Part shown: in pieces, positions 3,659 through 22,832 of the stretch
Layout: every line of letters starts with the position of its first letter
How positions within the stretch are numbered: the first letter of the stretch is position 1
DNA from: a virus
DNA: 30,220 nucleotides
Strand: one strand, 5' to 3'
Virus record (IMG/VR): IMGVR_UViG_3300046836_000582
Span: 1-30,220 of that record
The notes under the pieces: model-generated
Databases searched by the model: none
What the model was told of the DNA's origin: nothing
Seen by the model: the letters and a program-made list of their open reading frames with translations, nothing else
Program-made: the position numbers and the translations under genes

Positions 3659-4359
3659 TGGCAACAGCACGAGTTCAAACCGTAACCGGAGATTGGTCTA
3701 CAGGATCGACGTTAACTGCATCGATAACTGCGACGAACGGAAATCTTCTTGCAGTATCGATTCATTTTATCGCCAATAATTCTTCAAACAGTTTTGCAAC
3801 CTTCAGTGATGGAACAAATACCTATACCGAGATTGATCGTTCTGAGGCGGTACTTGGAGGCGATAACACCGGACTGGTAACAGGGTATGCGAAAAACATA
3901 ACAGGCGGCGCGTTGACCGTTACTGCGACGATGAATACTTCGGTCATTGACCGGGCTCGGCTAGTTGTCGAAGAAATAAGTGGATGTGATACGACAGCAC
4001 CGCTAAACGTTCACGCTATTCAACACCAAGCCGCTCCTGGAACCGGAACTGATGCTGTCACATCCGGAGCAGTTACCGCTTCTGCAGGAGATTATGTCTA
4101 TGCAGCCTGCATCGACTTTTTTAGCGGCTCGCCTGTCCTAGCTCACGGCACTGGATTTACGGATGGTATGAACGCTGCAGTTTGGGCTACTGAGTTTATT
4201 GCAAATTTTGCCGGAGGGTCGAAAGCCGGAACGTTTACGACTTCTTCTGGATCTTTAGATTTTTTTACAGCGGTTGCAATGTTCAAAGCGGCAGCAGGTG
4301 GTGGAGGAAGTGTTCTTGGATCCTATTACTACGAGAAAGTCGCAGGGATGATACCATAG
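3658..4359 (+). CDS. Beta-sandwich virion protein, probable tail accessory (233 aa)
   Basis: The ATG overlaps the stop of the tailspike gene (TAATG), so translation is coupled. The protein is all-beta in appearance, with alternating Thr/Ser/Val strands, no long helix, few charges and a Gly-rich linker (AAAGGGGS, about 213-220) before a short C-terminal tail ending GMIP. It resembles the generic beta-sandwich proteins common next to fibre genes. No specific family is recognised. Its position suggests a part of the spike or fibre complex, or a surface-binding domain. The last codons double as part of the promoter-like sequence before the 4364 gene. Confidence 0.65.
   Translation: MATARVQTVTGDWSTGSTLTASITATNGNLLAVSIHFIANNSSNSFATFSDGTNTYTEIDRSEAVLGGDNTGLVTGYAKNITGGALTVTATMNTSVIDRARLVVEEISGCDTTAPLNVHAIQHQAAPGTGTDAVTSGAVTASAGDYVYAACIDFFSGSPVLAHGTGFTDGMNAAVWATEFIANFAGGSKAGTFTTSSGSLDFFTAVAMFKAAAGGGGSVLGSYYYEKVAGMIP
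4349..4357 (+). promoter_or_regulatory. Extended -10-like element before the 4364 gene
   Basis: TGA-TACCAT with the hexamer at 4352-4357 (4/6) stands 6 nt (AGGCTT) before the ATG at 4364. It contains ATGATACC, also found before 6279 and 10686. Intermediate quality; an AGG close to the start may help translation. Confidence 0.35.
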
Positions 4360-4363
4360 GCTT

Positions 4364-6070
4364 ATGTTCAAGAACACGGCATCTCAAAAAGTAATTGTCT
4401 TCGCTTTCGATGCGACAACCAATGTTCCAAAGACCGGAGATGCGGCGAACATTACCGCTTATGTTTCGAAGGATTTCGGAGCGGTCACTGTACTTGGTGA
4501 CACAAGCGCAACGGAGATGGATGCGACGAATGCGCCAGGGTATTATCTCTTCGACATCACACAGACAGAAACAAACGCCGATACGATTCTCGTCTCTGGA
4601 AAATCGTCAACGGCGAATATAAAGATTCTTGGAGCACCGGCAGCGATCTTCACAGAACCTGCGAACTTCACATCCACATCGATCGATAGCAACGGACGCC
4701 TAGATATTATTAAGGTTAACGGGACAAGCCAAACGGCAGGCGATATTTTCTCTAAAGTATCGGGCCTGACATACACAGTTGGTAGTCAAGTTGACGTGAA
4801 TCTTAAGAGTTGGCGCGGAACAGCTGCGGCTGCAGAAAACACACCAGGTGTACCCATAGTCGATGTTGCCCGTATAAACAACATCGTAACGACTTCCGTA
4901 GTAACCGTCAGTGCCAAGATAGGAACAACAAGTGCGATCCTGTTTGACGGAAACGGAAACGTCAAAGCGGATGCTGAGTCGTGGTTAGGAACAACGATTG
5001 TTACCCCGGCATCAGCCGGAACACCAGATATAAATGTAAAGAGCTTCACAAACGGTTCTCTTCATCAAGCGACGTTTGCATCGGATGTACCGAGTCTCGC
5101 AACCCGAACCGGCACAGCCCAGGCCGGAGGCGCATCTACAATTACACTCGATTCTGGCGCGAGTGCAACGGATAACTTCTATAAATTTCAAACTGTAGAA
5201 CTTACTGGAGGAACGGGTGCAGGGCAGACCAATGTCATTGCCAGTTATGTTGGCGCCACAAAGATTGCGACCTTGGATCATGCCTGGGCAACCAATCCCG
5301 ATAATACGTCCACGTTTATACTGCTGCTCTCTTCGGCACTCCCAAGCGCAACTGCTTTAACCGGAGCCCAAATCGCGACAGCGATCTTTACAGACACGGT
5401 TGCCGGAGATTTCACAGTTGCGAATAGTGTTGGAAAGTCGATTATGAATGGGATTGCACTTGGAACCGGACTTACGATCGTTTCGGTTTCCGGTTCTGTT
5501 GGAAGTGTCACCGGGCTCACAGCATCAAATCTCGATACGACTGTCTCCTCCAGAATGGCAACCTATACACAGCCAACCGGATTTCTTGCGGCGACATTCC
5601 CGTCTGGCACGATCGCGAATACGACGAATATAACAGCTGGGATAATCACAACTGTAACGAACTTGACGAACGCTCCAACTGCCGGTGACTTCACCGCGAC
5701 AATGAAGACGAGTTTGAATGCATCAACACCGGCCTCAATTACTGGTGCTGTTGGATCCGTGACTGCAGGTGTAACCTTGGCCGCAAGTCAGCTCTTTGCA
5801 AAGAAGAATACACAACTGACTGCCTTCATGTTCAAGATGGTCCTGGCATCAGACCATATCACTGCCGCCACTGGAAAAACCGTTGTCTGCCAAAGAAGTA
5901 TTGATGGCGGCGCATTTGCGAATTGTACGAACACTCCTGCAACGGAAGTTTCGGCTGGGTGGTATAAAGTTACGCTCTCCGCGGCTGATATGAACGGCAC
6001 AACGATTGCGCTGAAATTCACAGAAGCCTCTTGCGATCAGCGAGACATTCTGATAATCACCCAGGCATGA
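4364..6070 (+). CDS. Large Thr/Ala-rich structural protein with duplicated end modules (568 aa)
   Basis: The N-terminal module (about 8-93) and the C-terminal module (about 480-568) look homologous. Both begin with KNT, carry a T-E-(M/V) then G-(Y/W)-Y pattern (TEMDATNAPGYYLFDIT versus TEVSAGWYKVTLS), and end in a strand followed by D-x-I-L. Between them lies a long, repetitive Thr/Ser/Ala/Asn-rich region with short beta repeats (LTNAPTAGDFTATM, SSRMATYTQPTGF) of fibre-like composition. I infer a virion surface protein or fibre with two capping beta-sandwich domains. No enzymatic motif is visible. It is followed by an ATGA overlap with the 6067 gene. Confidence 0.65.
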   Translation: MFKNTASQKVIVFAFDATTNVPKTGDAANITAYVSKDFGAVTVLGDTSATEMDATNAPGYYLFDITQTETNADTILVSGKSSTANIKILGAPAAIFTEPANFTSTSIDSNGRLDIIKVNGTSQTAGDIFSKVSGLTYTVGSQVDVNLKSWRGTAAAAENTPGVPIVDVARINNIVTTSVVTVSAKIGTTSAILFDGNGNVKADAESWLGTTIVTPASAGTPDINVKSFTNGSLHQATFASDVPSLATRTGTAQAGGASTITLDSGASATDNFYKFQTVELTGGTGAGQTNVIASYVGATKIATLDHAWATNPDNTSTFILLLSSALPSATALTGAQIATAIFTDTVAGDFTVANSVGKSIMNGIALGTGLTIVSVSGSVGSVTGLTASNLDTTVSSRMATYTQPTGFLAATFPSGTIANTTNITAGIITTVTNLTNAPTAGDFTATMKTSLNASTPASITGAVGSVTAGVTLAASQLFAKKNTQLTAFMFKMVLASDHITAATGKTVVCQRSIDGGAFANCTNTPATEVSAGWYKVTLSAADMNGTTIALKFTEASCDQRDILIITQA

Positions 6071-6282
6071 TAATCGATTACGGCAAAGGTGGTTTATATC
6101 CCGGCGTCGAGATTATCGAATTTCCGCAGATCTATGGGTGGTTCGGAATCTCCGCTCCAGATGTTTTTATCGCAAAGATCACAGCACGGGTTTCAACACC
6201 GGAAATTGACTTTTCGGTTTCGACTCCGAGAATCGATGCATTCGTCCAGGTCATTTCGGGAAGTGGTACAATGATACCGTGA
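6067..6282 (+). CDS. Small beta-rich protein, unknown (71 aa)
   Basis: The ATG at 6067 overlaps the preceding TGA (ATGA), which decides the start over an in-frame upstream ATG at 6031. The protein opens MIIDYGKGGLYPGVEIIEF and contains a short internal repeat (STPEIDFSV, STPRIDAFV). It ends in MIP, like the 3658 gene, because the last codons overlap a promoter-like element. It is probably a small virion component translated together with its neighbours. No family recognised. Confidence 0.6.
   Translation: MIIDYGKGGLYPGVEIIEFPQIYGWFGISAPDVFIAKITARVSTPEIDFSVSTPRIDAFVQVISGSGTMIP
6264..6272 (+). promoter_or_regulatory. Extended -10 element, predicted leaderless start of the 6279 gene
   Basis: TGG-TACAAT with the hexamer at 6267-6272 (5/6) is followed by 6 nt (GATACC) and then GTG at 6279. 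The 4-nt GTGA overlap with the upstream gene offers translational coupling as an alternative way to start. Confidence 0.45.
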
Positions 6283-6611: not shown

Positions 6612-7154
6612 ATGTATACCGAAGGTGGAGCTGGACGATACGAAGGGGCAACACGCCAGGGGTTAGTTTTTGCTGCAGCAAATCAGGCAGCGAAGACTTA
6701 TACTCTTTTCGGAAATACAACTGCGACAGGACTTATTCTTTCCAATCCTCCGAATTCTGGGAAACTGCTTTCTGTTGTCTCTATCGAATTTATGAAGGCG
6801 GCAGTTGCTGCTGCTCAGTTCGAAGATCTGGTTATTAGCGTTGGAGCAATGGGTGGAAGTTTTGCCCATACAACTCCGCTTACGGTTCAACCTTGCAATG
6901 TCGGAAAGGCTCCGTCGATCGGAGTAGGTCTCTGCGACGAAGCTGCAACGTTAACGGCTGCAGGACTTGTCATCGCCCCTTTCGCAGTTCCATCAGCTTC
7001 CGCAACAGCAAACGTCTCTGTTCCTCCGGTTACGATCTGGGAAGTAAGCGGTCGATTTGCAATTCAACCTGGATCATTTCTTCAACTCGCTGGTGGATTT
7101 ACGAACACCGTTTCTGGCGTTGGCGGAATTATCTGGCGCGAGATTGACATCTAA
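6612..7154 (+). CDS. Beta-rich structural protein, unknown (180 aa)
   Basis: The protein is nearly all short beta strands with Ala/Gly/Thr/Val composition: MYTEGGAGRYEGATRQ, LVFAAANQAAKTYTLF, SGKLLSVVSIEF, and a C-terminal pair WEVSGRFAIQPGSFLQLAG then GIIWREIDI. The layout (N-terminal arm, jelly-roll-like strands, final hydrophobic strand) suits a head-decoration or tail-surface protein. It closes the spike/fibre block and comes directly before the terminase genes. I do not recognise a family. Confidence 0.65.
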   Translation: MYTEGGAGRYEGATRQGLVFAAANQAAKTYTLFGNTTATGLILSNPPNSGKLLSVVSIEFMKAAVAAAQFEDLVISVGAMGGSFAHTTPLTVQPCNVGKAPSIGVGLCDEAATLTAAGLVIAPFAVPSASATANVSVPPVTIWEVSGRFAIQPGSFLQLAGGFTNTVSGVGGIIWREIDI

Positions 7155-7172: not shown

Positions 7173-8042
7173 ATGATTTGGAAAGATCCGATTCTACCGA
7201 AGATCGTCATTCCGTCTGATCTGAAGTCGAAATGGTTTCAACTTGGTAGTGCAAAATATCAACTCCTTCCCCATCAGTATGAGTTCCTGGCTGCAAAAGA
7301 GACTGAAGTCTGTAGCATGGGTGGATACGGTTCTGCGAAAACGTTCGGCGGGGTTCTTAAGGTCGCACATCTCGCAATGTTCCCGAACAACCGCGGGATC
7401 GTTGGCCGATTCGCTTCGACCGACCTGGAAGACACCACTGAACGCGATCTCTTAGACTTCCTTCACTCCGCGGAACTATTACACACAGCGCCAAATCAGC
7501 ACACCAAAAAAGCAATTGTGCGATGCGTGGATCCAGTCACGCAACGAAATCTTGGTTACTTTAGTGAGATCTCGTTTCAGCATATGGACGATCCGAAGCA
7601 TCTGCGCGGTCGACATATCGGTTACTATTGGATAGATGAAGCAAGTGAGGTTCACCCTGATGCGAAGAAAAATCTTGACGGTCGTACTCGTTGGAAGGCT
7701 TTTGCTGGCCGATACCAAAAGCTTTTTACAGGCAATCCAGAGGGCCATAACTATCTATATGATCGTTTCTTCAATAAAGACGAAATTCTTAAAGCAGTGT
7801 GCGGCCATCCAGAATGCACCCTCTCTCAAGAGCAATGCAACATCCAGCATATACGTCTTAAACGCCGAGGAATTCACGCGAAGACGTTCGACAACTACTT
7901 CTTAGCGAAAGACTACATTGAAGATATGCTTGCATCGTATAGCCCGAACGAGCGGCAGCGCTATATGGATGGCGACTTTGATATTTTTGAAGGCGCTGCC
8001 TTCCGTGAATTTGATCGCAACACACATGTACTGGCCATATGA
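7173..8042 (+). CDS. terL: Large terminase, ATPase subunit/domain (289 aa)
   Basis: This is the DNA-packaging motor ATPase. Walker A is GGYGSAKT (50-57), an unusual but known terminase form with Ala before the Lys. Walker B is YYWIDE (151-156), with catalytic Glu156, and the coupling motif LFTGNP follows (185-190). RBS GGAGG stands 6 nt before the ATG. A Cys/His cluster (C210, H212, C215, C222, H226) sits after the ATPase core and may bind a metal. The ORF stops right after FREFDRNTHVLAI, where ordinary large terminases continue into the RNase H-like nuclease. Here that part is a separate ORF overlapping by ATGA. Typical large terminases are 450-600 aa, and the two ORFs together give 546. Confidence 0.9.
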   Translation: MIWKDPILPKIVIPSDLKSKWFQLGSAKYQLLPHQYEFLAAKETEVCSMGGYGSAKTFGGVLKVAHLAMFPNNRGIVGRFASTDLEDTTERDLLDFLHSAELLHTAPNQHTKKAIVRCVDPVTQRNLGYFSEISFQHMDDPKHLRGRHIGYYWIDEASEVHPDAKKNLDGRTRWKAFAGRYQKLFTGNPEGHNYLYDRFFNKDEILKAVCGHPECTLSQEQCNIQHIRLKRRGIHAKTFDNYFLAKDYIEDMLASYSPNERQRYMDGDFDIFEGAAFREFDRNTHVLAI

Positions 8043-8812
8043 GCGAAACTTTTAAGGATTGGGAAAACGATATTCCGCCTCGATACTGGAAGCGGATCCT
8101 GGCAATGGACGTCGGAGGCGCCACAGCGAACGTCTTGGAATGGGCGGCACTGTGCCCAGAGACGCAATCGCTGGTGTTCTACGATGAAGTCCACAAAGTA
8201 ACGACAGACATGTCTGAAGTCGCGAAACTCGCGCTTCCGAAGATGAAACCGGAAGGATCACAGAATGAATACGAATTCATCGCTAAAGCCGGAGACTACG
8301 AGAACAAGATTGCCCTGGATGACATGGCCCGTCACGGGATCCGATTCACCAATGCGGTGAAGCAGAACAAGATTTTCAGTGTGCATCGCTTCGCTGGATA
8401 TCTTCATCCGAATCCGAAACGCCCGTATCCATCCTGGCACCCAATGGCGGGTCAGTACGGAGCCCCGCTGTTCTTTTCGACTCCGCGCTGTAAACATCTG
8501 AATGACGAGATCCCCCAGCAGAAGTGGAAGAACGAAGCGAAAGGAACGAGCGTCAAGGATGAACTCGATCGAACGGTAAAACATGATGCTGTCGACTGCG
8601 CTCTTTACATCGCGCGAATCATGCCAGCCCCGATTACAATTCCGATTTTAGTTCCGAAAATCCAAACCGAGACTCGCAGTTTGCAGAGTCAGATATATTG
8701 GGAGAACGTCAGGATGCAGGAAGAACGGAAGTCCAATGTGCAATCCAGGACTCCATACACGCCCGGACACGTAGGAGGCAACGATCAATGGCGATCATTA
8801 TTGGGATTTTAG
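8039..8812 (+). CDS. Large terminase, nuclease domain as a separate ORF (257 aa)
   Basis: This supplies the headful/end-cutting nuclease of the packaging motor. The RNase H-like fold is suggested by the first strand RILAMDVGG with Asp24, a second acidic site near GDYENK (Asp86), and the last acidic motif KHDAVDCALYIAR (Asp183/Asp186) in the place of the third catalytic Asp. It starts at an ATG overlapping the ATPase stop (ATGA) with no separate Shine-Dalgarno, so it is probably made by termination-reinitiation at a ratio near 1:1. It lies in the -1 frame relative to the ATPase ORF. A sequencing error, or a programmed frameshift giving a fused protein, cannot be excluded, but there is no X-XXY-YYZ slippery heptamer at the junction. 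Confidence 0.85.
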   Translation: MSETFKDWENDIPPRYWKRILAMDVGGATANVLEWAALCPETQSLVFYDEVHKVTTDMSEVAKLALPKMKPEGSQNEYEFIAKAGDYENKIALDDMARHGIRFTNAVKQNKIFSVHRFAGYLHPNPKRPYPSWHPMAGQYGAPLFFSTPRCKHLNDEIPQQKWKNEAKGTSVKDELDRTVKHDAVDCALYIARIMPAPITIPILVPKIQTETRSLQSQIYWENVRMQEERKSNVQSRTPYTPGHVGGNDQWRSLLGF

Positions 8813-8994: not shown

Positions 8995-9012
8995 CATAGG
9001 AGATTTCCTATG
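8995..9012 (+). promoter_or_regulatory. Hairpin pairing the ribosome binding site with the start codon
   Basis: CATAGGA (8995-9001) is the exact complement of TCCTATG (9006-9012), around the loop GATT. The left arm contains the AGGA of the ribosome binding site and the right arm contains the ATG of the protease gene. In the mRNA this would hide both signals, so protease translation may need unfolding or ribosomes arriving from upstream. Confidence 0.5.
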
Positions 9013-9612
9013 AAGAAGTTTATCGCTTGTCTGTGCATGGTCCTGATTTGCAGTTTGAGTTTCGCTGAAAAATCGCAGAGCGTTGCTCAGCAACTCTATG
9101 TTCCGGTTTTCTGCGCCGGTCAGCCAATGGGGACAGGATTCCCTGTTGATACGAATCTTCTAATGACTGCCGGTCATGTGCGATGTCCTGAAGGCGAAGC
9201 CACAACGATAAGCATCGACCACGGCAAGACATGGATTAGCGAGGAAGACTGGCTTGTGAGCGGCGATTTCGATGTGGCGATTCTGACGGTCACAGGGAAA
9301 CCCTTCAAAGAGTTTGCGCACTTCCGGGATCCGAAACTCGGAGAAACTGTATCCGGTTATGGAATTCCTTATGACGGTCTCCTGTCGACCGGAATCATTG
9401 CCCACCTGGAGGATTATTTCGTTTTCACAACGAATATTCCGATCGGCGGAATGAGCGGATCCGCAGTTGTCGGAACTGACGGAAAAGTTGTTGGAATGGT
9501 GAATTTCGGACTTCCGGATCAGCGAGTCGGTGGTACACTTTCTGGTGGGTATCAGGCAAAAGTCTTGACCGACCTAATCAAAAGTTTCAAAGAATTTAAG
9601 GGAGCAAAATAA
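9010..9612 (+). CDS. Secreted trypsin-like serine protease (200 aa)
   Basis: The protein starts with a Sec signal peptide (MKK, hydrophobic IACLCMVLICSLSF, cleavage likely after FA at residue 19). The chymotrypsin-fold triad is visible: His56 in MTAGHV, Asp88 in GDFDVAIL, Ser149 in GGMSGSAV (the G-x-S-G-S form seen in glutamyl-endopeptidase and HtrA-like enzymes). Strands around GTGFPVDTNLLMTAGH and the final VVGMVNFG also fit. The protein would act in the periplasm or outside the cell. It lies between a membrane protein and the lysozyme genes, so a role in lysis, envelope degradation or inactivation of host surface proteins is plausible. It is unlikely to be the capsid maturation protease because of the signal peptide. 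Confidence 0.85.
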   Translation: MKKFIACLCMVLICSLSFAEKSQSVAQQLYVPVFCAGQPMGTGFPVDTNLLMTAGHVRCPEGEATTISIDHGKTWISEEDWLVSGDFDVAILTVTGKPFKEFAHFRDPKLGETVSGYGIPYDGLLSTGIIAHLEDYFVFTTNIPIGGMSGSAVVGTDGKVVGMVNFGLPDQRVGGTLSGGYQAKVLTDLIKSFKEFKGAK

Positions 9613-9758
9613 TGGAAGATCTCTATGTTTCAATGGCAGTTTCGGTTTTGCTGAGCACGATCAAAAATCCGGACAAGAAAGCAAAGCTGAAGACCGTGTT
9701 TCTGAAAGTCTATCAGACAATCAAAACCGTCTACGCTGGTGATCCGGATTTTGCCTAA
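9612..9758 (+). CDS. Small lysis-cassette ORF, unknown (48 aa)
   Basis: The ATG overlaps the protease stop (TAATG) with GGAG 8 nt upstream, and the stop overlaps the next ATG in the same way, so three genes are translationally coupled. The product begins MEDLYVSMAVSVLLSTIKNP, an amphipathic to hydrophobic N-terminal helix, followed by a Lys-rich helix. It could be a small membrane-active or regulatory peptide of the lysis module. No family recognised. Confidence 0.65.
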   Translation: MEDLYVSMAVSVLLSTIKNPDKKAKLKTVFLKVYQTIKTVYAGDPDFA

Positions 9759-10180
9759 TGGATATCGGACGTCTGGATCAGTCAATCGAATTAGGTGAAG
9801 GTTGCAAACTCACCGCGTACAAAGATACTGAAGGAATCTGGACGATTGGATGGGGAACCAATCTCCAGAGCCTTCGCATCGACCAGGAACTTGCCGATAA
9901 GTGGAAGACTGAGAAGATCAAGAGCGTGATCGTCTCTGCAAAGATGTTCCCGGAGTGGCAATTCCTGGATACCGACGCGCGGCAGAATGTCTTCATCGAA
10001 ATGGTCTATAACATGGGACCAATGCGCGTGAGCGGGTTTACCGAAATGCGCAAGGCGATTACCAAGCAGGATTGGGAAACCGCGGCAAAGGAAGGACTCA
10101 GTTCGAAGTGGGCGACTCAGGTCGGCCAACGCGCGAATCGCTTGATGGAAATGCTTAGGACCGGACAGTTTCAGGCATAA
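9758..10180 (+). CDS. Lysozyme, glycoside hydrolase family 24 (140 aa)
   Basis: This T4-lysozyme-type muramidase cuts the glycan strands of peptidoglycan. The catalytic residues line up with T4 lysozyme: Glu14 in GEG, Asp23 in YKDTEG and Thr29 in WTIGWG, with the same spacing (9 and 6 residues) as E11, D20 and T26. The family's C-terminal helices follow (NVFIEMVYNMG, WATQVGQRANRL). There is no signal peptide, so export would depend on a holin. The start is coupled to the upstream ORF by TAATG. The last 10 bases overlap the end of the convergent JAMM gene. Confidence 0.92.
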   Translation: MDIGRLDQSIELGEGCKLTAYKDTEGIWTIGWGTNLQSLRIDQELADKWKTEKIKSVIVSAKMFPEWQFLDTDARQNVFIEMVYNMGPMRVSGFTEMRKAITKQDWETAAKEGLSSKWATQVGQRANRLMEMLRTGQFQA

Positions 10181-10599
10181 TCGACTTCTGGAAGAGGAGA
10201 AGGCACATACCAATGGACAGAACTTCTATGCCCGTCGTTGTCGACATAAACAATCCCGCAGATAGCTTCTCCCCACTGGAGAGCACTCTTAATGTCGTCA
10301 TCGGAGAGATGCCAGCAACATTCGTCACCTTCAGCGGAGCAATGAGAGTGAATCGTTCCGAGAAAATCTTCTTCCTTTCGAAGCGCGGCCTTTTTAGAAC
10401 GGATGATCCCACGGCTTCCTCCTGTGATCTTGATTCCATCGGGGTCGGCGCTATGCTCGACCGCAGCGATTCGGGTAATGAGGAAGTTACCCTCGTCGGA
10501 CCTGAGTCCGTGGAGGGCAGCGAAATGCTCATTTGGGAACCTCTTCCGGCATTCCCGCCTGAATTCAGCTAACATTTTTCTTGGGCAGATAATCTTCAT
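10171..10599 (-). CDS. JAMM/JAB-family metallopeptidase on the minus strand (142 aa)
   Basis: The protein shows the JAMM zinc signature: Glu24 (NEHF), then H84-S-H86 in GTIHSH, then S99-x-x-D102 in LSDDD. The Gly-Thr-Ile-His-Ser-His strand and the preceding basic helix match the JAB/MPN fold. Such enzymes cleave isopeptide or peptide bonds next to ubiquitin-like Gly-Gly tails; in phages a JAB domain also occurs in lambda-type tail protein K. Here it stands alone, opposite in strand to all neighbours. The ATG complementary to 10597-10599 overlaps the stop of a 20-codon leader ORF, which decides the start. It is probably an accessory (moron) gene. Its target is unknown. Confidence 0.8.
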   Translation of the reverse strand: MKIICPRKMLAEFRRECRKRFPNEHFAALHGLRSDEGNFLITRIAAVEHSADPDGIKITGGSRGIIRSKKAALRKEEDFLGTIHSHCSAEGDECCWHLSDDDIKSALQWGEAICGIVYVDNDGHRSSVHWYVPSPLPEVDYA

Positions 10600-10658
10600 G
10601 CTGGTATAACCGAATGGTCGGGAAACCACCTTAACCAGAATTCGACGAAAAACTTCAT
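10596..10658 (-). CDS. 20-residue leader ORF coupled to the JAMM gene
   Basis: ATG complementary to 10656-10658, stop overlapping the JAMM start (ATGA). It has the best ribosome binding site in the area, AGGAGG, 4 nt from its ATG, while the JAMM gene has none of its own. The peptide begins MKFFVEFWLRWF and is rich in aromatic residues. It probably brings ribosomes to the JAMM start by reinitiation. An attenuator or toxin-like peptide role is possible but unsupported. Confidence 0.55.
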   Translation of the reverse strand: MKFFVEFWLRWFPDHSVIPA

Positions 10659-10670
10659 GCCGCCTCCTAG

Positions 10671-10679
10671 TGGTATGAT
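10671..10679 (+). promoter_or_regulatory. Extended -10 element, predicted leaderless portal mRNA
   Basis: TGG-TATGAT with the hexamer at 10674-10679 (5/6) is followed by 6 nt (ACCAGT) and then the portal ATG at 10686. The upstream plus strand carries the complement of the minus-strand ribosome binding site and no Shine-Dalgarno for portal. Confidence 0.6.
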
Positions 10680-10683
10680 ACCA
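10675..10683 (-). promoter_or_regulatory. Extended -10 element of the JAMM operon, overlapping the portal promoter
   Basis: Read leftward, the palindrome TGGTATGATACCA gives TGG-TATCAT (hexamer complementary to 10675-10680, 5/6). A start at 10668 would begin the mRNA exactly with AGGAGG, 10 nt before the leader ATG. The two predicted starts, 10668 leftward and 10686 rightward, are 18 bp apart. Confidence 0.55.
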
Positions 10684-10685
10684 GT

Positions 10686-12884
10686 ATGGCGGCAAACGCG
10701 ATACAAAATAAACGAGGCGTTCCTGGTCCAAAAATGTACGACAACAAACCGGCTCCAGATTCCTTTGCCGGGATGTCGGAGAAGGAGAAGCTGCAGTCGA
10801 TCTGCGGTTATATTCGTAACACCGATCGGGAGCAGAAGATCCGCCGCAACACCGTGTTCTATCTCATGGCTCTGTACTATCAGGGCTACCAGAACGTTGA
10901 GCTTAGCCCCGGAACCGCAACCTTCGATATCTATGAGCGCGATGATTTTTACGTAGAGAATCAATTCCGCCACCACATCGATGCGGTGGTGAACTCCCTC
11001 TCGAAAAACGAAGGCGAGATCGTCATCCGGCCAGCTTCCGCAAATCAGCAGGATATGACAAAGGCGCGGGTCGCAGGACCGGTCCTGGATATGCAGAAGG
11101 CGACAATCGGCTATCCTCGAGTCCGAGATCTGAAGAACCTTTACAAATGCCTGTTCGGGAACGCCTTTATTTTTGTGGACTATGTGCGCGATGCAAAACA
11201 CGGCTCGATCGTGACGCCAAAGTTCACCTACACAGAAGTTCCGGATGAATCGGATCCGACTGCTGAGCCTTTCATGTCGAAAGTTCCGAATGGGTTTAGC
11301 ACCGTTAACAAAGGACAAGAAGTGTGCGTCGTTTGCTCTCCGCTGGAAATCAGTGTTAGGGCGGATACTAAAGGGTTCGAAAACATCACGTCGCTCCAGT
11401 GGAATAGTCGACAAGATGCGGACCTGATGAATTACGCATATCCAGGGCTCGGCGCCGAGAACGGAGCATGGAACGATGATCTTTCGAAGCAATATATGGA
11501 AATCCTCGCGAACCTGCCGGGAGCGGTCCTTGTCGATTCCGAATCGATCAACATTGGAACGATCCAGGTCAAGAAAGTTGAATACTCGCGCACGTGGCTG
11601 CTTCCGAGCACATTCGCTGGCGATAAGGCTCTTGAAAAAAAGTTCCCTGATGGTGTTCATGTCGCAACGGTGAACGGAGTCGTTGTCGACTACTATCCGG
11701 AAAATCTCTTCGACCGGTGGACCCATGAAGTTCTGATTCCGCTGCCGCATTCCCTACTCGGGGATGGCTTATACGATGCGATGCTGCTGCAGGACATCAT
11801 CAACGAAGCAAATTCGCTCATCCTGCAGCACGTGCGCTATTCCACGGTCGGTCACAACATTTACGATTCGAACGTGATTGATCCGAAGGATATTGTGAAC
11901 GATCCGAAAAATGGTTGGGTTCCGGGGAAACCAGGACTCGAAAAGAATATCCGCGATTCAGTCTTCCAGATTCAGCCGCAGCAATTGAGCGGTGACGTCG
12001 CTGCGTGGCTTGGAGCGAAGATGAATGCGATGGAGGATATGACCAGTGCATATGCTTCTTCAATCGGAAAAAGCATAGGCGCGAACACTCCGTACTCCCA
12101 GAGCGTGTTCTTGAACGAACGAGCACAAAGCCGGTGGCAGGGATCGCTCTCCTTCAATAGGCCAGAGATGATTCGATTCCATCAACAGCTTCTGAAGATC
12201 GCACAGACGGAGTGGATGGAAGATCGTTCGAACGCGATCATCGCGAATACCGGCGCCTGGAGTTTCCAGCAATTCTCGCAGGCCGATTTAGGCGGCGAGA
12301 TCGATATCTCGTTCAGCAACGCGGATCTCGCGCCGAAGAGTCGGTCAGAGCAGGTTCAAGCACTCGGAATGCTTCAGCAGTTATATCCACTGGTATCACA
12401 ACTTCCGCCGAAGCAGAAATTGCGTGTCGAAGAAATACTTGGAATGCCATCAGATTCGAATCCAATGAGCACCCAGATTTCTCGGGCATATCGGCAGATT
12501 GATCGGCTTATTAAAGGCCAGACTCTTGCTCCGCTTGCCGGAGTCGACGATCCGAACATTCAGGCGCCGGTAATTGTGGACTTCCTGGCGAGTGAAGACG
12601 GCGAAGATTTAGCACTCAGCAATCCGCAAGCATTCTCGGCCTGCTATGTTTATTGGGCAGCGCTGATGCACATGCTTCAGATGCAGCAGGGATTCATTCA
12701 GCCGGGGCAACAGGCCCAAGCGCAACCCGGACAGCAGCAACAGCCAGGGCAGCAGAAACAACCAGCTGGCGGTCAACCAGGACAGCAAGGCGGCGGTCCC
12801 AAAGGTGGTCCAGGAGGAACGCAGCAGCCGAATGCTCAGACGCCAGCGCAACCCGCACCACCGGTTGCACCACCAGCAGCGTAA
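10686..12884 (+). CDS. Portal protein, P22-like (732 aa)
   Basis: This is the dodecameric portal through which DNA enters and leaves the head. Length (732, close to P22 gp1 at 725) and layout fit: an N-terminal helical arm, a body with KNLYKCLFGNAFIFVDYVRD, a long helical segment around LGDGLYDAMLLQDIINEANSL, and TPYSQSVFLNERAQSRWQGSLSF with RFHQQLLKIAQTEWM typical of the crown/stem region. The last 70 residues are an unstructured Gln/Pro/Gly-rich tail (from about 663), longer than usual. The start is set by the ATG at 10686, six bases after a -10 element. Followed by its own downstream promoter at 12887. Confidence 0.85.
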   Translation: MAANAIQNKRGVPGPKMYDNKPAPDSFAGMSEKEKLQSICGYIRNTDREQKIRRNTVFYLMALYYQGYQNVELSPGTATFDIYERDDFYVENQFRHHIDAVVNSLSKNEGEIVIRPASANQQDMTKARVAGPVLDMQKATIGYPRVRDLKNLYKCLFGNAFIFVDYVRDAKHGSIVTPKFTYTEVPDESDPTAEPFMSKVPNGFSTVNKGQEVCVVCSPLEISVRADTKGFENITSLQWNSRQDADLMNYAYPGLGAENGAWNDDLSKQYMEILANLPGAVLVDSESINIGTIQVKKVEYSRTWLLPSTFAGDKALEKKFPDGVHVATVNGVVVDYYPENLFDRWTHEVLIPLPHSLLGDGLYDAMLLQDIINEANSLILQHVRYSTVGHNIYDSNVIDPKDIVNDPKNGWVPGKPGLEKNIRDSVFQIQPQQLSGDVAAWLGAKMNAMEDMTSAYASSIGKSIGANTPYSQSVFLNERAQSRWQGSLSFNRPEMIRFHQQLLKIAQTEWMEDRSNAIIANTGAWSFQQFSQADLGGEIDISFSNADLAPKSRSEQVQALGMLQQLYPLVSQLPPKQKLRVEEILGMPSDSNPMSTQISRAYRQIDRLIKGQTLAPLAGVDDPNIQAPVIVDFLASEDGEDLALSNPQAFSACYVYWAALMHMLQMQQGFIQPGQQAQAQPGQQQQPGQQKQPAGGQPGQQGGGPKGGPGGTQQPNAQTPAQPAPPVAPPAA

Positions 12885-12886
12885 CG

Positions 12887-12895
12887 TGGTATATT
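12887..12895 (+). promoter_or_regulatory. Extended -10 promoter after portal
   Basis: TGG-TATATT with the hexamer at 12890-12895 (5/6). A TTGCAC at 12865-12870 could act as -35 at 19 bp. A start near 12902 gives a short leader with AGGAGG before the ATG at 12915. Confidence 0.55.
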
Positions 12896-12914
12896 TGAAA
12901 AATAGGAGGCTCCA

Positions 12915-13214
12915 ATGGAACCAGAGACAGTTGTAAACGAATTGAAGGCCGTGATTGACGAAATTTCCGCAACTCAAGCACCCCCGGAAGCACCACCGGT
13001 CCCAGTCCCCCCGACCTATCAGGATCGAGTTCGAACCGAGAAAGCGGAACTCGATGCAAAGATCGAAAAACTTCAGGCGTTCATCGACGGAGACGTCTTC
13101 AAAAATATGAGTACCAACGTCGAGGGTGCCGACGAGCGCGGAAGACTCAAAAGTCAATTGAATTTCATGCGTGGGTATTCCGATATTCTCGGAGAACGCA
13201 TTATCCGATTCTAA
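12915..13214 (+). CDS. Acb2/Tad1-hairpin-like protein, candidate anti-CBASS sponge (99 aa)
   Basis: The C-terminal two thirds (about 34-99) match the pattern I know from Acb2-family proteins: YQDRVRTEKAELDAKIEKL, FIDGDVF, LKSQLNFMRGYSDILGERI. That is two long helices in a hairpin with YQxRV, E-x2-EL, K-x2-KL-x2-FI and Y-x2-ILGxRI. Acb2 proteins form hexamers that soak up the cyclic nucleotides that activate CBASS effectors. The first 33 residues are an extra helix and a Pro-rich linker, not part of the hairpin. RBS AGGAGG. It lies between portal and scaffold, a common place for this small family in phages. Binding activity is inferred from family resemblance only; a structural role is the alternative. 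Confidence 0.75.
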   Translation: MEPETVVNELKAVIDEISATQAPPEAPPVPVPPTYQDRVRTEKAELDAKIEKLQAFIDGDVFKNMSTNVEGADERGRLKSQLNFMRGYSDILGERIIRF

Positions 13215-13234
13215 GTTTCTAGGAGGCAACAATT

Positions 13235-14239
13235 ATGGCAGATACAGTACAAACACCAACACTTGAACAGACGACTGCGGCAGAGCTGGATGCTTTGCTT
13301 GGAACACCAGGATCTGCTGCTCCCGCAGCAGTAGTCGAGGATGGGTCCAAACCCAAACCCGACGCCAAGAGCCCTCCGGTTGCCTCCCCGGAGGGTTCTG
13401 AAACTCCCTCGGAGGAAGATACTCTTATCGCAGCACTCGAAGCGATCGAGGAAGAGAAACCGGTAGAAGTAAAACCAGACGAGAAACCTGCTCTGAGCGA
13501 AGAGCAAAAAGCGGTTCTCGATGTGATCCCAACGGCGACAGAAGCCGTTCGACTGCATAACGTCGAGCAGAACTACAACAACTTCACCGGCGCCTTGGCA
13601 AACGGCCAATTCGACAACGTTCAGAAGATGATTGAACAATGGAATCCCGACGTATGGGAGGGTTTGCTTGAACACATCTACGAGCAGAAGGTTGCTTCTG
13701 GCGAATGGGTGGATCGTTTTATTGCAGTCGCTGATGGCAAAGGCCCAACAAAAGAATTCACGAAACTCCAGAAGGAAGTGAATGAGTTAAAGAATCAACT
13801 CGTCGATAAGAAGACCGGAGAAGCGCAAACAAATGCTCAGCAACAGCTCAGCGATAACTTGAAGAAATACAGCACTCACGTTGGAGAACTATTCGATCAG
13901 CTGAATTTCAACAAAGCGGATCGGCGTTGGATTGTGGCGGATTTGAATCTTCGAATTGCTGCGGATCCCAAAGTTCTTGCCGCGGTGCGCGGAGGAAATG
14001 CGAAGGCTGTGAACGCGCTTTTCAAAGCGACCTGTAAGGACTATATCAATCGCGACAAGGAAGTCGTTGAGCAGACCACAGAGAAAATAGATGCTCAGAG
14101 CAAGAAGAAACTTCCGCTCGGCGGCGCGGCTGCTGTTGCCGAAGGCGCATTACCAGAAGACTTCAAGAACGTTCCGGCGAAGGATGCCGAGAGCGTCGCA
14201 TCGCGGATGCTCGACAAATTGCTTGGTAAGAAAAAGTAA
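13235..14239 (+). CDS. Scaffolding protein (334 aa)
   Basis: Position between portal and major capsid, length and composition fit a scaffolding protein, which directs procapsid assembly and leaves the shell. The first 95 residues are acidic, Pro/Glu/Ala-rich and disordered. A helical middle follows (EAVRLHNVEQNYNNFTGAL, DNVQKMIEQWNPDVWEGLLEHIYEQKV), then a coiled-coil region (about 165-215, FTKLQKEVNELKNQL). The end is basic (LDKLLGKKK), as in P22-type scaffolds whose C-terminus binds the coat. RBS AGGAGG 8 nt upstream. A GC-rich 8-bp inverted repeat (13372-13379 with 13388-13395) lies in the disordered coding part. Confidence 0.8.
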   Translation: MADTVQTPTLEQTTAAELDALLGTPGSAAPAAVVEDGSKPKPDAKSPPVASPEGSETPSEEDTLIAALEAIEEEKPVEVKPDEKPALSEEQKAVLDVIPTATEAVRLHNVEQNYNNFTGALANGQFDNVQKMIEQWNPDVWEGLLEHIYEQKVASGEWVDRFIAVADGKGPTKEFTKLQKEVNELKNQLVDKKTGEAQTNAQQQLSDNLKKYSTHVGELFDQLNFNKADRRWIVADLNLRIAADPKVLAAVRGGNAKAVNALFKATCKDYINRDKEVVEQTTEKIDAQSKKKLPLGGAAAVAEGALPEDFKNVPAKDAESVASRMLDKLLGKKK

Positions 14240-14240
14240 T

Positions 14241-14259
14241 ATTCACAGTTGCTGTGAAT
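14241..14259. repeat. Perfect 8-bp hairpin at the scaffold/endonuclease junction
   Basis: ATTCACAG and CTGTGAAT pair around TTG, directly after the scaffold stop codon. It contains the stop codon of the convergent endonuclease gene. Together with the terminator that follows it makes a two-hairpin 3' end. Confidence 0.5.
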
Positions 14260-14743
14260 TTGGGCCGGAAGGTGAATATCTTCCGGCTTTTTCTATGTAA
14301 TCGGCAAGAGCGCGAAGAATTGTGGGATTCTCGTTGGCGTGACCAACTGCGAGATTGCAGCCACTGCAAAGGATGCCACGAATCATGCCTGTCGAATGGT
14401 CGTGATCGATGCTCGGCTTGTTTTTGGATCCGCAGATTTCGCAACCGTTCTTTTTTCGCTCAAGAAGACTCGCCGCTTCTTCGAGAGAAACTTTATAACG
14501 ATTTCGAATTTCATAAATAGCGTGTCTATCCGGGTTTGCCTTTCGGTATTGTCTTTGATAGGCAGGGTTTGACCCGTTTTGGACTCTCCGTAATCTTGCT
14601 AATTCGCGATTTGCAGCCATCCATTCTGGATCGGCCTTCTTTTTATCGTAGTATCTTCTGCCAGAAATACGCCGATTTTCTTTGTGGTCCTTCTGCCATT
14701 GACTACGATACGCTCGTGCTTTTTCTAAATCTGTATACGCCAT
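14243..14743 (-). CDS. Endonuclease VII-like HNH nuclease on the minus strand (166 aa)
   Basis: The C-terminal half carries the recombination-endonuclease-VII pattern: C101-x2-C104, then the DHDH motif (113-116), then C126-x2-C129 with N130, that is two zinc-binding pairs framing the catalytic His. The first 90 residues are Arg/Lys/Tyr-rich repeats (RRYYDKKKADPEWMAANRELARLRR), probably DNA-binding. Family members resolve branched DNA during packaging or act as free-standing homing nucleases. Its reversed orientation between scaffold and capsid suggests a selfish or accessory insertion. Its last 16 codons read antisense through the scaffold terminator. The start shows a -10-like hexamer 6 nt upstream. 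Confidence 0.88.
   Translation of the reverse strand: MAYTDLEKARAYRSQWQKDHKENRRISGRRYYDKKKADPEWMAANRELARLRRVQNGSNPAYQRQYRKANPDRHAIYEIRNRYKVSLEEAASLLERKKNGCEICGSKNKPSIDHDHSTGMIRGILCSGCNLAVGHANENPTILRALADYIEKAGRYSPSGPNSQQL
14264..14292 (+). terminator. Intrinsic terminator after scaffold
   Basis: GCCGGAAG (14264-14271) pairs with CTTCCGGC (14280-14287) and is followed by five T. It ends the portal-scaffold transcript before the capsid promoter. It lies inside the 3' coding end of the convergent endonuclease gene. Confidence 0.8.
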
Positions 14744-14749
14744 TCCTGA

Positions 14750-14755
14750 ATTCTA
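14750..14755 (-). promoter_or_regulatory. -10-like element before the endonuclease gene
   Basis: TAGAAT on the minus strand (5/6) is followed by 6 nt (TCAGGA) and then the ATG, the same layout as the leaderless starts on the plus strand. CAGGA 1 nt from the ATG is too close for normal Shine-Dalgarno use. Confidence 0.45.
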
Positions 14756-14819
14756 CAAAGCTAAAACACAAAGTGCCACATAAATTATTTGCTTGACTTA
14801 GCATTTCTTTTCTGAGGCG

Positions 14820-14828
14820 TGGTATATT
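14820..14828 (+). promoter_or_regulatory. Extended -10 promoter of the capsid operon
   Basis: TGG-TATATT with the hexamer at 14823-14828 (5/6). A TTGACT lies at 14793-14798 but 24 bp away, too far for a normal -35. A start near 14835 gives a leader of about 65 nt, the longest of the set. Confidence 0.55.
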
Positions 14829-14868
14829 TTGTATAGACAGAAGCACAAGGCAGAAGTCAAGACAAATC

Positions 14869-14880
14869 GGGCTACGGCCC
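14869..14880 (+). promoter_or_regulatory. UNCG-tetraloop hairpin in the capsid leader
   Basis: GGGC-TACG-GCCC folds into a short stem closed by C(UACG)G, a member of the very stable UNCG tetraloop class. It lies between the predicted start and the GAAGGA ribosome binding site, so it may protect the capsid mRNA 5' end. Confidence 0.5.
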
Positions 14881-14899
14881 TTAACGAAGGAAAAAACTT

Positions 14900-16123
14900 A
14901 TGGCTCTCGGAGATTTGGCCCAGCTTAACGGCGTGGTAAAGATCATAGGAGGGAAACTTACTAAGGTCTACGAGGAAAAAGCGCTTCTGCACAATCGCCT
15001 CCAAAAAGGAAAGGGCACTTCGATCAGCGATCGAGGCGTTGAGATTCCAACTCAGCTTTCTCCCAACTTCAACCATGCTTTCATGGCTGACGGTGGTGAG
15101 TTTCCGGTTGGCGGATCGGTCCTGGTGAAAAGGGCATCCGTCTATTTCAAGAACATCGCGCACACCGCTCGTCTGACCGGCGCTGCGCTTGACGCGATCA
15201 AAGGCGGGGATCGAGCCTATATCGATAACTCGCTGTCCTGGACTCTTGAGGAAACGGTGAAGTCCGCTGCGAAGGCCGGAAACATTTACGCTCACGGCGT
15301 TGGGGACGGTCGCTTGGCGACGATCTCTGCCGGTGCTAATTCCGCCACGCAGACTGTAAACAACAACGATAAGAATCGGTTTCTGCGAGACGGTTTGGTG
15401 GTTCAGAGCGTCACGCCTGGAACCGGTGCAGTTACCGCGACTGGTACGATTCTGAATTCGAAGGCTTCTGCGACTACGTTTACGACTGTGGCTGCGATGA
15501 CGACTACGCTGACCAGCGATATTATCGTCGCTTCTGGATCTTTCAATCTGGCGATCGCCGGAATGAAGTTGATGATCGACGACACGACCAACGGAGCGGT
15601 TACGTTCCAGGGGTTGAGCCGAACGACTTTCCCGAGCTACAAGGCATTCCGAGTCAACGCCGGTTCTACCGGTATGGATCCTGCCTTCCTGCGAAGAGCG
15701 CTGAGCGCCGGTATCCACATCAATGTTGGAGAACTGGACAGGGACAATCTGGAAATCTGGGCGCATCCCGCACAGGTCTCCGCGTATCATGCTCTGGGTT
15801 GGAATCTGAAACGATTCGAGGGGACCAGCAAATCGGTGGATCTCGGTTTCGTCACCAGCGAGTATGAGGGAATTGCGATGGTCCAGGACGTCGACTGCGA
15901 CAAGGATCGGGTCGAGTTCATCGATTTCTCCACGATGGGGAAATACGTTGCCAAGGATTATGGCTGGGATGATCGCTCTGGCGCCGTGCTGAGCCGCGTT
16001 GTGGGAACGAATTCCTACAAGGATCAGTTCGAAGCCTATTACACGGGTCGGTTCAACTACGGTTGCACTGCTCCGAATCGCAACGCTTTCGTGGATGGTT
16101 TGACTATCCCGACCGGATTCTAA
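14900..16123 (+). CDS. Major capsid protein, HK97 fold (407 aa)
   Basis: This forms the icosahedral shell. The opening (MALGDLAQLNGVVKIIGGKL, VYEEKALLHNRLQ) is an N-arm. SPNFNHAFMADGGEFPVGG is followed by KRASVYFKNIAHTARLTGAALDAIKGGDRAYIDNSLSWTLEE, the E-loop/spine-helix pattern of HK97-like capsids. LDRDNLEIWAHPAQVSAYHAL and the late FEAYYTGRFNYGC strand fit the P and A domains. Length 407 is typical. The Thr/Ala-rich stretch at about 165-215 may be an inserted surface domain. The gene has its own promoter and a long leader, as expected for the most abundant protein. RBS GAAGGA. Confidence 0.85.
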   Translation: MALGDLAQLNGVVKIIGGKLTKVYEEKALLHNRLQKGKGTSISDRGVEIPTQLSPNFNHAFMADGGEFPVGGSVLVKRASVYFKNIAHTARLTGAALDAIKGGDRAYIDNSLSWTLEETVKSAAKAGNIYAHGVGDGRLATISAGANSATQTVNNNDKNRFLRDGLVVQSVTPGTGAVTATGTILNSKASATTFTTVAAMTTTLTSDIIVASGSFNLAIAGMKLMIDDTTNGAVTFQGLSRTTFPSYKAFRVNAGSTGMDPAFLRRALSAGIHINVGELDRDNLEIWAHPAQVSAYHALGWNLKRFEGTSKSVDLGFVTSEYEGIAMVQDVDCDKDRVEFIDFSTMGKYVAKDYGWDDRSGAVLSRVVGTNSYKDQFEAYYTGRFNYGCTAPNRNAFVDGLTIPTGF

Positions 16124-16137
16124 TCAGGAGAAAACGA

Positions 16138-16491
16138 ATGTCAGTTAAAGCAGCTCGCGGACAGTCAGACGGAAATCTGGCTGTCATGTTCAAGATTCTC
16201 GATACCGCTGGAACACCTTCAATTGTGGATGTCTCGCCAGCGTCGATGCTGGCAGATATCTCAGTTGTGGATACTGGAGTTGGTATCTACGATGTGACGG
16301 TCAAGAATTTCCAGGGGCCGCAGCAAAAAGTGAATATCCAGGTTACGCCTTATGTGATCGGGAACTTTGGAACTGTGACGGCTCGAAGTTATTCCGGCGC
16401 AGACTTTTCGTTGACAGTCAAAACTGGAACGGCAGTCACAGACTTCACAGCTGCAGATACGTCTAGTGACGTTCGATTGGAGGCTTTCTAA
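16138..16491 (+). CDS. Small beta-rich protein after capsid, probable decoration protein (117 aa)
   Basis: AGGAG 8 nt before the ATG at 16138 sets the start; an in-frame upstream ATG at 16063 lies inside the capsid gene. The protein opens MSVKAARGQSDGNLAVMFKI and is built of short beta strands with few helices (IVDVSPASMLADISVVDTG, YDVTVKNF, VNIQVTPYVIG, DFSLTVKTG). Its place directly after the capsid gene and its size fit a head-decoration protein. No family recognised. Confidence 0.7.
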   Translation: MSVKAARGQSDGNLAVMFKILDTAGTPSIVDVSPASMLADISVVDTGVGIYDVTVKNFQGPQQKVNIQVTPYVIGNFGTVTARSYSGADFSLTVKTGTAVTDFTAADTSSDVRLEAF

Positions 16492-16676
16492 TGGCAGCGA
16501 TTACAGCGGCACCGACTCCTCCGAAGACCAAGATGGGAAAAGGCTTCTACCAGGATCTGGATTGGGCCTTGAAAACAATGGTCGCAGCCCTGGCCGACGA
16601 TACGTCGAACGGGACAACGGCAAACACGATTGCGGAATTGCAGACATACATCGCTGCAGTTATTCTGGTACTGTAA
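16491..16676 (+). CDS. Small helical protein in capsid operon (61 aa)
   Basis: The ATG overlaps the previous stop (TAATG). A Pro/Thr/Lys-rich first 15 residues (MAAITAAPTPPKTKMG) are followed by one long helix (FYQDLDWALKTMVAAL) and a hydrophobic C-terminus (AELQTYIAAVILVL) that could be amphipathic or membrane-touching. Together with the next gene it forms a pair of very small coupled proteins of the head operon. Function unknown. Confidence 0.65.
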   Translation: MAAITAAPTPPKTKMGKGFYQDLDWALKTMVAALADDTSNGTTANTIAELQTYIAAVILVL

Positions 16677-16689
16677 AGGAGAATAGAAC

Positions 16690-16854
16690 ATGGCAGCAGC
16701 AACACAGGTTCCCGCGGGGACATGGCACGGCAAGGGTTGGATTGTCCAGCTCACTGCAGATATCAATACGGCAGTCGCTGAAGGTATCTTCGCCGGATCC
16801 GATACGGTCACAACTGCGCTTGCGAATCTGGCAACAGAACAAGCCACTCGTTAA
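16690..16854 (+). CDS. Small protein closing the capsid operon (54 aa)
   Basis: ATG at 16690 with GGAG 8-9 nt upstream; stop at 16852-16854. The product (MAAATQVPAGTWHGKGWIV, then LTADINTAVAEGIF and TTALANLATEQATR) resembles the preceding 61-residue protein in composition and N-terminus (MAA-T-P), so the two may be diverged copies. It is followed at once by the structured terminator at 16863. Confidence 0.65.
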   Translation: MAAATQVPAGTWHGKGWIVQLTADINTAVAEGIFAGSDTVTTALANLATEQATR

Positions 16855-16862
16855 TACCGATA

Positions 16863-16930
16863 GGGCGTCGATTAGATATAGGTAGCCAAAGCGAAATGCA
16901 GGGCTCCAATCTTCGACGCCCTTATTTTTT
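16863..16930 (+). terminator. Structured intrinsic terminator of the capsid operon
   Basis: GGGCGTCGA (16863-16871) pairs perfectly with TCGACGCCC (16913-16921), followed by TTATTTTTT. The enclosed 41 nt fold further: AGAT (16874-16877) with ATCT (16909-16912) and AGCC (16884-16887) with GGCT (16902-16905). This is a long, three-tier terminator rather than a simple hairpin. Confidence 0.75.
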
Positions 16931-17689: not shown

Positions 17690-18432
17690 GCACTATTGCA
17701 GTCTTCAACGGCTTTGGAAAATACGAGCAGACCCAGGATGGCCAGAAAGGAATCACACTGAAATTCGGTGGCGTTCCGTTCTGGTTACCATACGATAAGA
17801 TCACTTATTTCCCGGATTACACAATGCGGGAAGTCGATCAAGATAAGAGTTCTCCTGGTGGCCAGGTTCAGGGAGAGCTGGTGTACCACACCTTCCGCGT
17901 CTCCGGCGATACGATCGTCGATATTCTTTTGGAGAACGGAGATACGCATAAGAATAGCGACAAAGGGATTATCGTGATCCCGAGCGAAGGCCACCGAAAA
18001 GACTCCTATATCAAGGTTTCATCCGGGTATGAAATCGATGGTCGTCCAATTTTTGAGAGTATCCAGGAAATCGTTCCTACAGCGTTGGAGATCCAGGAAG
18101 CCCATCGACTTGCAGATATTTACAAGCAAACCGTTGTGCAGGAGTATCTTCAGTCGAAACGGGAACGAATTAACGGCGGAGTCGGGCAAACAACTCCCTC
18201 TGGCCTTACCCGCGTTTACATGGATGAACTTGGCATCAAGGATCTGGATGATGTTTCGAAGAGTCTTGAGCAGTCAGGCGCCAACGGGTTAACCCTGGAG
18301 ATCCTGCAGGAAGCCGTCAAGGCTTTGCAGGCGTTGAACCCAAAGCCGCAGACCACAGTTCCGGAGCCAACTAAAAGCGGCCCTCCGGGAAAAGCGACTG
18401 GTTTGAAGGAAGTTCAGCCAAGCATCGTATAA
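17686..18432 (+). CDS. Unknown virion-region protein (248 aa)
   Basis: The N-terminal half is beta-rich (AVFNGFGKYEQTQDGQKGITLKFGG, FWLPYDKITYFPDYT, GELVYHTFRVSG, SYIKVSSGYEIDGRP). The second half is helical (AHRLADIYKQTVVQEYLQSKRERI, LDDVSKSLEQSG, LEILQEAVKALQAL) and ends in a Pro/Lys-rich disordered tail. No motif recognised. It lies immediately before the adaptor gene, so a head-tail interface or chaperone role is plausible. Its stop codon is part of the TATAAT of the next gene's promoter. Confidence 0.75.
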   Translation: MSTIAVFNGFGKYEQTQDGQKGITLKFGGVPFWLPYDKITYFPDYTMREVDQDKSSPGGQVQGELVYHTFRVSGDTIVDILLENGDTHKNSDKGIIVIPSEGHRKDSYIKVSSGYEIDGRPIFESIQEIVPTALEIQEAHRLADIYKQTVVQEYLQSKRERINGGVGQTTPSGLTRVYMDELGIKDLDDVSKSLEQSGANGLTLEILQEAVKALQALNPKPQTTVPEPTKSGPPGKATGLKEVQPSIV

Positions 18433-18433
18433 T
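18428..18433 (+). promoter_or_regulatory. Perfect TATAAT, predicted leaderless start of the 18440 gene
   Basis: TATAAT (6/6) overlaps the upstream stop codon and is followed by 6 nt (GGTGGT) and then the ATG. TTGAAG at 18403-18408 could be a -35 at 19 bp. Confidence 0.6.
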
Positions 18434-22823: not shown

Positions 22824-22832
22824 GGGTATAAT
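22824..22832 (+). promoter_or_regulatory. Perfect TATAAT, predicted leaderless start of the 22839 gene
   Basis: GGG-TATAAT with the hexamer at 22827-22832 (6/6), then 6 nt (GACTCT), then ATG at 22839. No Shine-Dalgarno lies in reach. The cleanest member of the set. Confidence 0.65.

Follow-up and report, generated by a model that had tools for sequence, protein, structure and literature searches.

A palindromic candidate for a two-way promoter between the JAMM unit and the portal gene of a phage

The portal gene and the antisense JAMM unit of this phage diverge from a perfect odd palindrome, TGGTATGATACCA (10671-10683), which probably serves as the core of a bidirectional promoter for the host housekeeping RNA polymerase. 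Judging from the sequence, we put the probability of this reading, with the site active both portal-ward and JAMM-ward, at about three in four. For the portal-ward, leaderless half taken alone, promoter function is very likely. The window referred to below is the whole 30,220-nucleotide stretch of DNA that was analyzed, an IMG/VR record of an uncultured phage. The first-pass annotation had proposed the palindrome as a bidirectional promoter, and the proposal is supported: the sequence conforms in both directions to the promoter grammar seen elsewhere in this phage and to the published symmetric geometry.

The palindrome and its two transcription units

The palindrome has arms of 6 bp and contains two overlapping extended -10 elements. 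It reads TGG-TATGAT rightward (10671-10679, + strand) and TGG-TATCAT leftward (10675-10683, - strand), as first annotated, with the -10 elements ending at 10679 and 10675, respectively. The rightward element lies 6 nucleotides before the portal ATG. The center common to both elements is the 7-bp TATGATA at 10674-10680, within which -11A and -7T are reciprocally paired. The two starts predicted earlier, 10686 (the portal ATG) and 10668 (the first base of AGGAGG), do lie 18 bp apart and are both A; in the window, both -18 positions are T.

In symmetric bidirectional promoters, -11A and -7T pair reciprocally, the starts are 18 bp apart, and an A at +1 gives a T at -18 of the opposite strand (PMC10268837). 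Start spacings of 10 or 23 bp are also common. The phage site resembles the symmetric promoters of Warman and Grainger (PMC12825309; PMC10268837), as had been claimed, in its shared -10, paired -11A/-7T, 18-bp spacing, and A at +1 with T at -18 in each direction. It differs in that the TGn extension is present both ways, one product would be leaderless, the site lies at the junction of a phage antisense module, and it is known here from sequence. No TTGACA-like -35 hexamer was found 16-18 nucleotides upstream of the -10, and a general promoter scan omits the palindrome site, which fits the extended -10 type and not the classical -35/-10 sigma-70 promoter.

The portal gene (10686-12884, + strand) encodes a protein of 732 amino acids, assigned by a match to phrog_156 portal (E=0.003), by the terminase-portal-head gene order, and by homologues that are 98, 78, 77, and 52% identical. 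Because an in-frame TAG occupies 10668-10670 and no start codon exists between it and 10686, the first possible start of the ORF is 10686. In the relatives the codons are conserved from this ATG onward, with changes mostly in the third position. The start has no Shine-Dalgarno (SD) sequence in the window. The predicted rightward transcription start is the A of the same ATG, a placement that draws on the -10 spacing, the missing SD, and the enrichment of TAnnnT at exactly 6 nucleotides described below.

The leftward start is predicted at 10668 (- strand), 18 bp from the rightward one according to the PMC10268837 geometry. It would leave a 10-nucleotide 5' UTR, AGGAGGCGGC (10659-10668, - strand), with the SD at its extreme 5' end; this SD is kept in all three related JAMM-bearing contigs (G001, G002, and G003). 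The JAMM leader of the earlier description, the first gene of the leftward unit, consists of a 20-codon ORF, MKFFVEFWLRWFPDHSVIPA (10658-10596, - strand), which appears as MRFFVDFWLRWFPDHDLVAA in G002 and MKFLLDFWLRWFPNDTLVLA in G003. Its TGA overlaps the ATG of the JAMM gene at 10599. The JAMM/Prok-JAB metalloprotease-like gene (10171-10599, - strand) encodes 142 amino acids and matches PF14464 Prok-JAB (E=1e-7); residues E24, H84, H86, S99, and D102 are invariant across three homologues.

The mechanism proposed here begins with the shared center TATGATA, on which the two extended -10 elements would allow polymerase to bind in either orientation. Rightward binding would start transcription with the first base of the portal ATG, giving a leaderless mRNA and re-starting late transcription past the accessory module. 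Leftward binding would start at 10668 and give an mRNA with a 5'-terminal SD, from which the 20-amino-acid peptide and then, through the ATGA overlap, the JAMM protein would be translated. We infer that the site fires in both directions and that a host sigma factor reads both -10 elements; no gene for a phage RNA polymerase or sigma factor stood out on reading the sequence.

Some features of the leftward genes are recorded here as separate observations. Canonical JAMM motifs have 7 residues between the second His and the Ser, fewer than the 12 that separate them in this protein. The 20-amino-acid peptide, whose ORF overlaps the JAMM start by ATGA, contains FWLRWFP and is conserved, with counterparts at L014:3059, L015:3739, and L010:19081. 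Conservation holds in G001 too, where the peptide has a different start (MSNFFVEFWLRWFP). Among other viral contigs, FWLRWFP turned up nothing else like the JAMM leader, as judged by local reading frames only. G001 (L010) carries an extra leftward ORF, starting MSIENVVQGLQILRRYYKTGYN, inserted between the promoter with its SD and the JAMM leader. A different gene is now first in the leftward unit of G001, and the palindrome and SD are still intact, a point in favor of the two-way promoter.

Predicted start-codon-adjacent promoters in the phage

Eight of the 34 curated starts in the window have TAnnnT exactly 6 nucleotides upstream, compared with at most three at any other spacing. When the window and the three related contigs, four genomes that are not independent, are pooled, TAnnnT at exactly 6 nucleotides is found for 24 genes versus 0-13 (mean about 5) for each other spacing in the range 0-30, and TGnTAnnnT at 6 nucleotides for 10 genes versus mostly 0-1 (no more than 3) at other spacings. 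By a simple SD pattern applied to curated starts, an SD is present at none of the 8 starts with the 6-nucleotide -10 and at 22 of the 26 others (Fisher p = 2.7e-5); none of the 22 SD-led starts has a -10 at 6 nucleotides. The portal gene and seven other genes combine TAnnnT 6-7 nucleotides before the start with the lack of an SD, the combination looked for in leaderless genes. The -10 and its 6-nucleotide spacing persist amid base turnover at the portal gene and at the genes at 1263, 4364, 6279, 18440, and 22839, whose homologues are about 40-80% identical. SD-less starts with TAnnnT at 6 nucleotides also occur in G001-G003 and in the more distant contig L046 (gene at 2408).

Predicted leaderless promoters on the + strand are TGGTAGGCT (1248-1256) for the gene at 1263, TGATATAGT (1659-1667) for the gene at 1674, TGATACCAT (4349-4357; TGCTAAGAT in G001) for the gene at 4364, and TGGTACAAT (6264-6272; TACAAT in G002) for the gene at 6279. 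The genes at 18440 and 22839, also on the + strand, are preceded by the predicted leaderless promoter TATAAT at 18428-18433 (also TATAAT in G002 and G003) and 22827-22832 (TATAAT in G003), respectively. On the - strand, TAGAAT (14750-14755) is the putative leaderless promoter of an antisense HNH-like gene (14743-14243). The extended -10 TGGTATATT occurs at 12887-12895 (+ strand), where it would produce a 13-nucleotide SD leader for the gene at 12915, and again at 14820-14828 (+ strand; TGGTACGAT in G002 and TGTTACGAT in G003), upstream of the head gene at 14900, as a separate divergent promoter. This second antisense gene, HNH-like by sequence, also has a divergent promoter pair composed of two separate sites, 14750 and 14828, and the pair is predicted to restart transcription of the head gene. 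A TTGACA-like word lies about 21-24 nucleotides upstream of the head-gene promoter (TGGTATATT/TGGTACGAT/TGTTACGAT), a distance greater than the usual 17 (window, about 14794-14835; L014, about 6961-7001; L015, about 7585-7625).

In Deinococcus-Thermus, leaderless genes have an ORF-adjacent -10, TANNNT, about 6-7 bp ahead of the start codon (PMC12340547), and in Actinobacteria leaderless genes are frequent (PMC3160421). The phage is like these bacteria in that the TANNNT element about 6-7 bp upstream replaces the ribosome binding site (RBS) and in that RBS-led genes exist in the same genome. It differs from them in that the genes are structural and accessory phage genes, the TGn extension is frequent, and about one quarter of the curated starts are involved. 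Two-way promoters are a known kind; start-codon-adjacent promoters ahead of many genes in one phage are less usual. Their share of the starts suggests that the host tolerates leaderless mRNAs. For annotation, a -10 standing in for an RBS can fix the gene start in such phages.

Relatives and alternative readings

The window contains 15 odd palindromes whose arms are 6 bp or longer, where about 7 would be expected, and symmetry by itself is unremarkable. The -10 content of this palindrome is beyond chance. The -10 elements were scored with a nine-column matrix whose training set consisted of 15 leaderless sites belonging to other genes and excluded the portal junction. The portal-ward half ranks 5th and the JAMM-ward half 9th among the 60,422 positions of the window.

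JAMM-bearing genomes in the collections searched number only four. In G001 (L002), a sister contig, the palindrome is identical and its halves rank 4 (portal-ward) and 5 (JAMM-ward) of 39,982 positions; the palindrome is shared by recent descent and so is not an independent case. G002 (L003) has AAGTATAATACTT, which is again perfectly palindromic, with the rightward -10 (TATAAT) at rank 6 and a weaker leftward partner at rank 129; an alternative leftward -10 with 21-bp spacing ranks 14. In G003 the rightward TGC-TAAACT ranks 11, the leftward half is lost (rank 6554), and with it the symmetry. A leftward CATAAT at the 10-bp geometry in G003 scores poorly (rank 313) and is not claimed. The rightward -10 holds the same spacing in G002 and G003, and the +1/-18 A:T pair is absent from G001 and G002.

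Conservation of the portal-ward promoter and its 6-nucleotide spacing thus extends to each of the three JAMM-bearing lineages and that of the leftward half to two, which favors a one-way promoter: the portal direction alone would be used, the leftward match would be weak or due to chance, and the JAMM unit would be transcribed from elsewhere. The -11A and -7T of the opposite strand also come free with any TAnnnT. This reading is nevertheless doubtful. A reverse partner as good as that of the palindrome has a probability of 2.4e-4 on random flanks, or 4e-3 when TGGTATGAT is taken as given for the rightward site. At the 15 other leaderless promoters no reverse partner exceeds 1 bit; the palindrome site scores 9.9. 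These values tie the symmetry to the divergent junction, though not every relative requires it. A matrix scan found no better leftward -10 within about 200 bp of the palindrome, and a properly placed SD directly follows the leftward start. G003 retains the leader peptide and JAMM despite having lost the leftward -10, so that element is not indispensable.

That the palindrome is an operator bound by a dimeric regulator is quite unlikely. The symmetry is perfect, and the flanks co-vary in G002 (TGG/CCA to AAG/CTT, a change with a chance probability of about 1 in 16), as an operator would predict. However, the word is found once in the window, where 0.28 matches are expected at up to two mismatches, and a half-site conserved and repeated at regulated sites was not seen. 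Each half is the ordinary -10 motif of the phage. Among the relatives the outer letters of the half-sites vary while TATnATA and its spacing to the ATG stay, the symmetry is lost in G003, and no adjacent regulator gene was recognized.

An RNA hairpin, by which read-through transcripts would fold beside the portal AUG and control translation, can be set aside: the + strand of the window folds well at 10650-10705 (-22.3 kcal/mol, z -4.1), but the fold is not conserved in the three relatives (z -1.5, -0.9, and +0.6), the stem forms between the leader region and the palindrome and not between the two arms, and the palindrome is absent from the predicted transcripts. Operator and hairpin alike explain less than the promoter reading.

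Searches of viral contigs with the portal, JAMM, terminase, and head proteins returned the same three contigs, L046 (head 55%, portal 52%), and the remote L047. Among 50,697 phage records, neither a protein search with the portal nor a DNA search with 9000-16900 gave a match. In bacterial genomes no portal relative was found, and the terminase had only a weak partial match of 32% in Rhizobium. The gene order of L046 is terminase ATPase, terminase nuclease, small ORF, and portal, with no lysozyme or JAMM gene between. Its portal is SD-led (GAGG, 6 nucleotides before the ATG) with no -10 at 6 nucleotides, whereas the four JAMM-bearing contigs have a portal with the -10 and no SD. From this single contrast, L046 against the four JAMM-bearing contigs, it seems that the promoter was acquired with the antisense module or was needed because of it.

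Possible roles of the junction

Phage morons are accessory genes with their own promoter. The JAMM unit is like them in being an antisense accessory gene amid late genes with a promoter of its own, and differs from them in that its promoter would have the second task of re-starting late transcription where the module interrupts it; a clear terminator was not recognized. A tentative extension sees the symmetric promoter as an exit device for the antisense accessory module: one minimal palindrome would drive the foreign gene, restore the interrupted transcription of the late operon, and turn a portal that is SD-led, as in L046, into a leaderless one.

In a bidirectional promoter, one polymerase binding event excludes the other (PMC12825309). 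Of the five E. coli bidirectional promoters tested, none was active enough at its basal level for the two directions to compete; competition emerged only after one of them had been strengthened (PMC12825309). That the two directions compete at the phage site is for this reason given only as a possibility; the two extended -10 elements might be strong enough for it. The palindrome could show a phage balancing an essential late gene against an accessory gene. As a candidate for a natural two-way promoter it is also compact, and its products would differ in translation initiation, one leaderless and the other with a 5'-terminal SD.

Upstream of the junction, the terminase large subunit looks split into an ATPase ORF (7173-8042, + strand) and a nuclease-like ORF (8039-8812, + strand) that overlap by a few bases. 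The same split pair is present in G001-G003 and in L046.
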